64,000 nt of DNA, from assembly GCF_019393635.1 (NCBI RefSeq), contig NC_057864.1:446542822-446606821 (forward strand), read 5' to 3'. A program made the position numbers and the translations under genes. Origin of the DNA: Dromiciops gliroides (lineage: Eukaryota; Chordata; Mammalia; Microbiotheria; Microbiotheriidae). The notes under the pieces were generated by a model that searched no databases, had not been told where the DNA came from, and worked only from the letters and a program-made list of their open reading frames with translations. Shown here one piece after another: positions 55,413 to 61,569 of this stretch (positions within the stretch are counted from its first letter, which is position 1; every line of letters starts with the position of its first letter).

Positions 55413-55560
55413 CTTTGGGACTCAAAAAAGCTATCTCAGAGTTATCTATTAGCCTCTTATAAGTAGAATTTCATTTGAATAATAATGATACTATTCAAAT
55501 GAAATTCTACTTATAAGAAGCTAATAGATAGCTCTGAAATAGCTTTTTTGAGTCCCAAAG
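55413..55560 (+). repeat. Near-perfect hairpin, 69-nt arms, 10-nt loop
   Basis: The left arm 55413-55481 and the right arm 55492-55560 are reverse complements in 66 of 69 positions, with loop 55482-55491. The three differences are C55435 against A55538, T55442 against G55531 and C55454 against A55519. On the transcript strand these are two A-C mismatches and one G-U wobble. The right arm ends exactly where a truncated SINE starts. The left arm is the original flank; the right arm belongs to the inserted DNA (see findings). Confidence 0.95.
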
Positions 55561-55696
55561 GTGGTGCAGTGAATAGAGCACCAACCCTGGAATCAGGAGT
55601 GCCTGAGTTCAAATCCGGCCTCAGACACTTGATACTTACTAGCTGTGTGACCTTGGGCTAGTCTCTTAACCCCAATTGCCTCACCAAAACAAATAT
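55561..55696 (+). mobile_element. WSINE-type CORE-SINE, 5'-truncated, joined to the hairpin arm
   Basis: A sense copy lacking the first GGGGCAGCTA. Duplication TAATAATGATA occurs at 55480-55490 and 55697-55707, so the right hairpin arm lies inside the duplication pair with the SINE. Confidence 0.88.
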
Positions 55697-55734
55697 TAAT
55701 AATGATATTAATATATCTATATAGTTTCTATTAT

Positions 55735-56345
55735 AAAATATATAGTGCCTATTTGTGCCAGTGTTAAGCACTTTACAGGTTATCTCTTTTGATCTTCACA
55801 ACAACCCTGGAATGTGTAGGTGTTATCATCCCCATTTTCACAGTTTAGGAAACTGGCAAATAGGTTTACGAGACTTGGAAAGGTCACACAGCTAATGAGT
55901 ATCTAAGGCTGGATTTGAATTCATGTCTTCCTGAGGCTCAGGGATCTATCCACTGTACCACCTACCTGCTTATTAATAATACTACTTATTGGTACCTGCA
56001 AGGCTCTTTGGATAATTTCATGATAAGCATGTAGTATAATTACAATTATTATAAATATAAGCATGAATAATAACCTCCTAGGATGTGTATTGAGAAGGTT
56101 CCCCTAGGGTTATTCAGTGTATTGCTGCCTCCAAACCATCTTCCAACTAACATGATAGGGATAAGGGACAGAGAGTAGACCTGTGATTTCACAGATGAGG
56201 ATGTTGCTTCTAACAGTGCCATTGGGCACCTTTTCTCTAACTTAGACTTAAGTGCCCAGAGTGCTCAGGTAAAGTGACTTGCCCCAAGGTCACAAAGAAT
56301 ATATGTCAGAGACAGGTCAATGCTTGAACCAGGTTAAAAAAACAA
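55735..56345 (-). mobile_element. Two MIR-type SINEs
   Basis: Antisense copies at about 55735-55970 (GTGTTAAGCACTTTACAGG, GGATTTGAATTCATGTCTTC) and 56200-56345 (GGTAAAGTGACTTGCCCCAA). Confidence 0.65.
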
Positions 56346-61416: not shown

Positions 61417-61425
61417 CACTCAAAA

Positions 61426-61482
61426 GTCACAACCTCCCTGGATCTAATAGATCAGGAAACTGAGATCCAGGGAGGTTGTAAC
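61426..61482 (+). repeat. Small hairpin after the microsatellite
   Basis: GTCACAACCTCCCTGGATCT (61426-61445) and its complement at 61463-61482 match in 19 of 20 positions, with a 17-nt loop. The right arm is part of an antisense MIR (about 61445-61565); the left arm is an extra inverted copy. Confidence 0.9.
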
Positions 61483-61569
61483 TTGTCCAAGGACAAGGTC
61501 CTAGGTAGGATTTGATCCCGAGTCCTCTTCCTGCAGAGCCAGTACTCTTTAACAAGCACCACCTCCTTC

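Follow-up and report, generated by a model that had tools for sequence, protein, structure and literature searches.

How does a SINE come to be preceded by an inverted copy of its own left flank, and were the inverted copy and the SINE acquired together or one after the other? Both questions are raised by positions 55413-55707 of the window, i.e., of the whole stretch of 64,000 nt of Dromiciops gliroides DNA that was analysed here. The structure at this locus is real, well preserved, and uncommon, and most likely represents a SINE example, in a marsupial reference genome, of a rare junction type that is already known and in print. The interpretation offered in an earlier note on this DNA is partly supported: it is right in outline, with a single-event origin and one of two possible primer strands being favoured, and it is not new as a class.

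Hairpin Arms and Loop

The left arm of the hairpin (55413-55481, forward strand) consists of the left flank of the insertion, which would have been the template of the foldback. It is complementary at 66 of 69 positions to the right arm (55492-55560, reverse strand), which is the inverted copy of this flank and a part of the inserted unit. The arms enclose a loop of 10 nt (55482-55491). If pairs within the target-site duplication (see below) are included, the arms match at 68 of 72 positions and the loop is reduced to 4 nt (55485-55488). Outside of 55413 and 55560 the match breaks off sharply. Thus the arrangement described in the earlier note, a flank of 69 nt followed by a loop of 10 nt and the inverted copy, was confirmed. 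Folded as single-stranded DNA, the hairpin stretch reaches -66.2 kcal/mol, compared to a mean of -11.9 kcal/mol for its shuffled versions (z -20); none of 200 shuffles equalled it, and the inverted arms are therefore not a product of chance.

The left flank was searched against the genome (3.3 Gb in 17 contigs, at least seven of them large), and neither a second copy nor an empty site was found. Due to the 3-4 substitutions that separate the arms, a foldback artefact of sequencing or assembly is disfavoured. A structured RNA gene was rejected as well, with all 16 Rfam matches (E <= 1) staying below the gathering scores; all of these matches overlap the hairpin because long hairpins attract them.

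SINE and Its Junction with the Right Arm

The SINE occupies 55559-55696 on the forward strand with 91% identity to the typed consensus and is presumably of the tRNA type, judged by its box-like motifs. Its first 9 consensus bases are missing, so that the match opens at base 10 of the consensus, corresponding to window position 55559. At the 3' side it ends in a short and impure A-rich tail (CACCAAAACAAATAT), a feature of target-primed insertion. Full-length copies of this SINE in the genome start with GGGGCAGCTAGGTGG or nearly so, and read against these copies, the AG at 55559-55560 (forward strand) closes the inverted copy and at the same time belongs to the SINE, i.e., the two are joined at a microhomology of 2 nt. 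The junction with the truncated 5' end, placed previously at 55561, was thus located correctly to within 2 nt. Just to the right of the insertion, a SINE-like stretch in the opposite orientation is situated at 55740-55970. By eye it appears older; inverted pairs I2 and I3 link portions of it to the young SINE.

Probable Target-Site Duplication and Nick Site

A direct repeat of 11 nt, TAATAATGATA, has its first copy at 55480-55490, reaching from the inner end of the left arm into the hairpin loop, and its second copy at 55697-55707, directly after the SINE tail and followed by TTAATATATC (both forward strand). The two copies, situated as previously described, agree at 11 of 11 positions and by-eye extension yields 13 of 14 (TAATAATGATAYTA). 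Since both stretches are AT-rich, the rate of chance matches was measured. When the two stretches were dinucleotide-shuffled, 257 of 30000 shuffles gave a match of at least 11 nt; among genomic pairs, this length was reached by 152 of 30000 AT-rich ones, 91 of 100000 random ones, and 63 of 39255 with the same spacing. With about 0.5-0.9% in the AT-matched controls, the repeat exceeds chance expectation at a level that is well supported, though not overwhelming. We infer that it represents the target-site duplication of an L1-type, target-primed insertion.

One copy of the duplication is thus located at the hairpin loop, with the hairpin axis inside of it, and the other one at the 3' end of the SINE. 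The loop copy lies 68 nt away from the SINE 5' end, which places the inverted copy within the inserted unit. Accordingly, the earlier view that this unit is composed of inverted flank and SINE was borne out, with one copy of the duplication to be added.

Duplications were surveyed for 179 SINE matches, of which 168 were usable, 153 had a near-complete 3' end, and 77 received a duplication call of at least 9 nt, some of these calls being due to chance. Nick scoring was based on 60 other SINE copies with flush duplications, which have a median length of 13 nt and a T|AAAA-type start; their median nick score is 4.5, a value obtained with a matrix built from these very sites. Among 17 positions tried at the locus, TTGAAT|AATAATGA at 55480/55481 scored highest (4.88), compared to -0.14 for the left end of the 11-mer, one base further left. 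Because of this difference, the real duplication may consist of AATAATGATA plus up to three more bases.

Age of Hairpin and SINE

The comparison of ages is equivocal and depends on which SINE differences are counted. The arms show mismatches at 3 of 69 pairs (138 lineage sites), and against 5 rare differences in 128 SINE positions this is compatible with one age for hairpin and SINE (Fisher p 0.49). All differences from the majority consensus taken together amount to 13 of 128 (10.2%), more than in about 80% of 129 other copies, and on this count (3/138 versus 13/128, Fisher p 0.008) the hairpin appears to be the younger of the two. Eight of the 13 differences are bases that are present in at least 9% of the other copies, and for this reason we judge them to be inherited from the source copy. 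Arm-to-arm correction could be another way in which the difference between the arms was lowered.

Frequency of Comparable Structures

A random sample comprised 25 of 180 drawn regions (250 kb), with ten other contigs and the last few per cent of C1 and C2 outside the draw. It contains 136 SINE matches, of which the 124 with 400 nt of upstream sequence were tested for an exact inverted match of at least 13 nt between the 40 nt and the 400 nt preceding the SINE. None of these 124 SINEs is preceded by an inverted flank copy of the window type; two passed the threshold, neither of them with a flank copy as in the window. When 166 SINE matches were put to the same test, three passed, namely the SINE of the window and those of loci L018 and L019. 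In case of L018, the match of 14 nt is a perfect self-palindrome (TGAAGATATCTTCA) located 15 to 2 nt before the SINE (start 7141, forward strand), and in case of L019, the match of 15 nt is located 364 nt away; both are probably due to chance. The samples of 166 and 124 SINEs overlap (L009-L028) and are not additive.

Inverted repeats were scanned without gaps, so that old foldbacks with indels were missed. The window and 26 further loci (283 kb), six of which were chosen for holding a related SINE, yielded five inverted repeats with arms of 20 nt or more and loops of at most 100 nt: the hairpin described here, two pairs of SINEs in opposite orientation, and one foldback each in L014 and in the window. 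The random 250 kb contain a single arm pair of at least 20 nt that is not a pair of SINEs. The foldback in L014 (8919-8988) is near-perfect (32 nt, 97%, 6-nt loop), has no adjoining SINE, and gave no second copy in the genome; it looks like the product of a replication template switch. The other one, at 61424-61484 of the window, is an inverted repeat of 22 nt with a loop of 17 nt that abuts a long CA/TA simple-repeat array.

Eight other duplications situated at least 18 nt away from their SINE were inspected as well (two in L027 and one each in L023, L004, L013, L020, L011, and L026). None of them was accepted as a foldback, because the longest inverted match within the last 130 nt is only 6-10 nt, compared to 27 nt in the window; in case of L004, 266 nt of upstream sequence only were available. 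For L023 and L011, the gap contains part of the SINE itself. At L020 (918-1374), a target-site duplication cannot be defined because the SINE lies within a tandem array of units of approximately 37 bp.

Comparison with Known Junctions

Twin priming of L1, reportedly described by Ostertag and Kazazian in 2001, likewise leaves an inverted segment at the 5' side of the inserted retroelement. There the inverted sequence is derived from the element and here from the target flank. Twin priming was therefore rejected, since the inverted segment is local flank, for which no second copy was found, and not element sequence.

The closest relatives of the locus are human somatic L1 insertions with a foldback inversion at the 5' side, for which Nam et al. 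(2023; PMC10191854) list three events, i.e., a frequency of 0.3%, and one further case in combination with an internal inversion, with an extra synthesis of about 52-220 bp. As in these cases, an inverted duplication of the flank lies just upstream of the target and at the 5' end of a target-primed element; in the window, the duplication matches at 66 of 69 positions, its axis falls within the left copy of the target-site duplication, and the 69 nt copied are inside the human range. The lack of a flank copy among the 124 SINEs of the random sample is not in conflict with a frequency of 0.3%. Unlike the human somatic events (PMC10191854), the structure described here involves a SINE in a marsupial reference sequence and has arms that differ by 3-4 substitutions, by which it appears to be old and heritable.

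Snap-back 5' junctions, some of them on nearby target DNA, were furthermore observed by Zhang et al. (2024; PMC11371274) in R2-based transgene insertion (PRINT). Those junctions differ in that synthesis appears to be primed by the cDNA 3' end, in most cases on the cDNA itself, and in that the insertions were made site-specifically into rDNA of cultured cells. Considering the architecture reported for L1 (PMC10191854) and the R2-based junctions (PMC11371274), the statement of the earlier note that no named class exists can no longer be upheld.

Local foldback inversions at yeast double-strand breaks (Yu et al. 2024; PMC11724301) resemble the locus in that an end folds via microhomology, copies its own flank, and is joined with a median microhomology of 2 bp. 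They differ in that most are approximately 5-34 bp long (range to more than 150 bp), in an imperfect 10-bp match and a loop of 41 nt, and in that the break was made by an endonuclease in the absence of a retroelement, with completion by regular NHEJ as inferred by the authors (PMC11724301). Short-range replication template switches (Walker et al. 2021; PMC7954356), with a median fragment of 12 nt, likewise leave near-perfect inverted repeats beside the switch point, and differ in that they need neither an insertion nor a target-site duplication.

In the available text of a long-read study of 1,019 genomes (PMC12350158), inverted duplications and twin-priming inversions are covered and a foldback class of mobile elements was not seen. 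Nothing on a flank foldback structure was seen either in the corresponding parts of a survey of human and chimpanzee L1 and Alu junctions (PMC2912911) and of an end-joining review (PMC12426944). A report of such a foldback for a SINE was not found in a literature represented mostly by titles and beginnings of abstracts and by few subscription journals, and no priority is claimed.

Origin of the Structure

The position of the duplication outside of the inverted arm and the joining of this arm to a truncated SINE 5' end support a single event in which the left flank served as template for foldback synthesis. The favoured reading, to which we assign a probability of roughly 0.6, is a target-primed SINE insertion that was accompanied by a foldback of the top-strand 3' overhang. 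In its favour are also the nick score at 55480/55481, close to the median of the 60 flush copies, the agreement of ages on rare SINE differences, the lack of a like structure among the 124 SINEs of the random sample, the L1 precedent with a range of synthesis that includes 69 nt (PMC10191854), and the yeast foldbacks captured with a median microhomology of 2 bp (PMC11724301). The SINE would have entered by L1-type target-primed reverse transcription, with a nick in the bottom strand near 55480/55481 priming synthesis of the SINE cDNA from the tail. A cut of the top strand 10-14 nt further to the right would have left the duplication as a 3' overhang. This overhang would then have folded on itself, its terminal TA (or TTA or ATTA in case of a longer stagger) pairing with TA, TAA, or TAAT at its base, whereupon a host polymerase, which as a guess might be of the theta or delta type, would have used the left flank as template for about 69 nt of strand-displacing synthesis. 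The 3' end so formed would have met the SINE cDNA via the AG, 9 nt short of the SINE 5' end, and repair would have completed the junction. The order of these events, the primer strand, and the polymerase are what we infer. The mechanism put forward in the earlier note is supported as regards foldback synthesis on the left flank in one event, which fits the anatomy; its top-strand primer is favoured only, as priming by the cDNA gives the same product.

Several observations count against the foldback of the overhang. The direct repeat is AT-rich, with a chance rate of up to approximately 0.9%, its left end scores poorly as a nick site (-0.14), the SINE appears older than the hairpin when all of its 13 differences are counted, the match by which the overhang would prime comprises only 2-4 bp, compared to the imperfect 10-bp match of the yeast foldbacks, and the simplest reading of the loop requires one substitution, the C at 55491. 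Moreover, a 32-nt foldback that is devoid of a SINE (L014) occurs in the random sample.

Hairpin and SINE would also have arrived together if the same insertion had used the other primer. Here the 3' end of the SINE cDNA would switch, through CT/AG, to the left flank and copy its bottom strand for 69 nt until run-off at the first-strand nick; the run-off end would then be joined to the top-strand overhang. The copy starts at the inferred nick or no more than a few bases from it, as predicted by run-off, and in the R2 system priming by the cDNA 3' end seems to take place on the cDNA and, less often, on nearby rDNA (PMC11371274). We nevertheless regard priming by the cDNA as rather unlikely: it requires a second, essentially unpaired joining step, the self-pairing overhang already accounts for the inner junction, and the L1 cases are ascribed by Nam et al. 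to additional synthesis, potentially by DNA polymerases (PMC10191854). An origin in two events, in which an ordinary SINE insertion was followed by a template switch during replication, with a foldback in the left duplication, copying of 69 nt of flank, and re-entry into the SINE 9 nt from its 5' end, appears unlikely. It is in agreement with the SINE-free foldback at L014:8919-8988, with the greater age of the SINE when all its differences are counted (p 0.008), and with short-range switching documented in apes, where inverted fragments reach up to 128 nt (PMC7954356). The median fragment in apes, with 12 nt, is far below 69 nt (PMC7954356), the ages agree when only rare SINE differences are considered (p 0.49), and the axis would have to land by chance in a duplication of about 14 nt, as is expected for approximately 0.8% of random foldbacks (136 SINEs per 250 kb). 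If the L1 rate of 0.3% is applied (PMC10191854), a single event predicts about 50 times more such structures, an estimate that rests on one observed foldback and a rate borrowed from human somatic L1.

Two further explanations were considered. The overhang may have been ligated at the nick to the 5' end of the bottom strand, which would cap the left end as a hairpin, and this hairpin may have been opened later at a distance of 69 nt, resembling the formation of P-nucleotides in V(D)J joining. Such a course of events would give the same product, with a copy starting exactly at the nick. The opening of a hairpin 69 nt away would be unusual, and we consider this route very improbable. That the palindrome existed before and the SINE landed beside it has the least credit of all, even though a SINE-free foldback palindrome does occur (L014). 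An insertion beside the right arm would have left a duplication directly adjoining the SINE 5' end; the best one is situated 68 nt off, in the hairpin loop, and on account of this position the order was rejected.

Implications for Retroelement Insertion

Little is as yet understood of how LINE and SINE insertions become joined to the chromosome at their 5' end. The present locus, which belongs to a reference genome and has breakpoints that can be read, suggests for a SINE and in the germ line that the end of the target itself can be extended before joining. The precedent of human L1 (PMC10191854) makes a single example less surprising than it was at first thought. Furthermore, one mobile-element insertion provides a simple route to a long hairpin of unique sequence. 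It is a speculative and rather unlikely proposition that a minor share of germ-line SINE insertions is regularly sealed by foldback of the target end, and, given a copy that starts at or near the nick, that the reverse transcriptase of the element itself may have copied the displaced target strand until run-off. If true, every wave of SINE insertion would leave thousands of long, near-perfect hairpins of single-copy sequence, and these would feed new hairpin RNAs as well as fragile palindromes.
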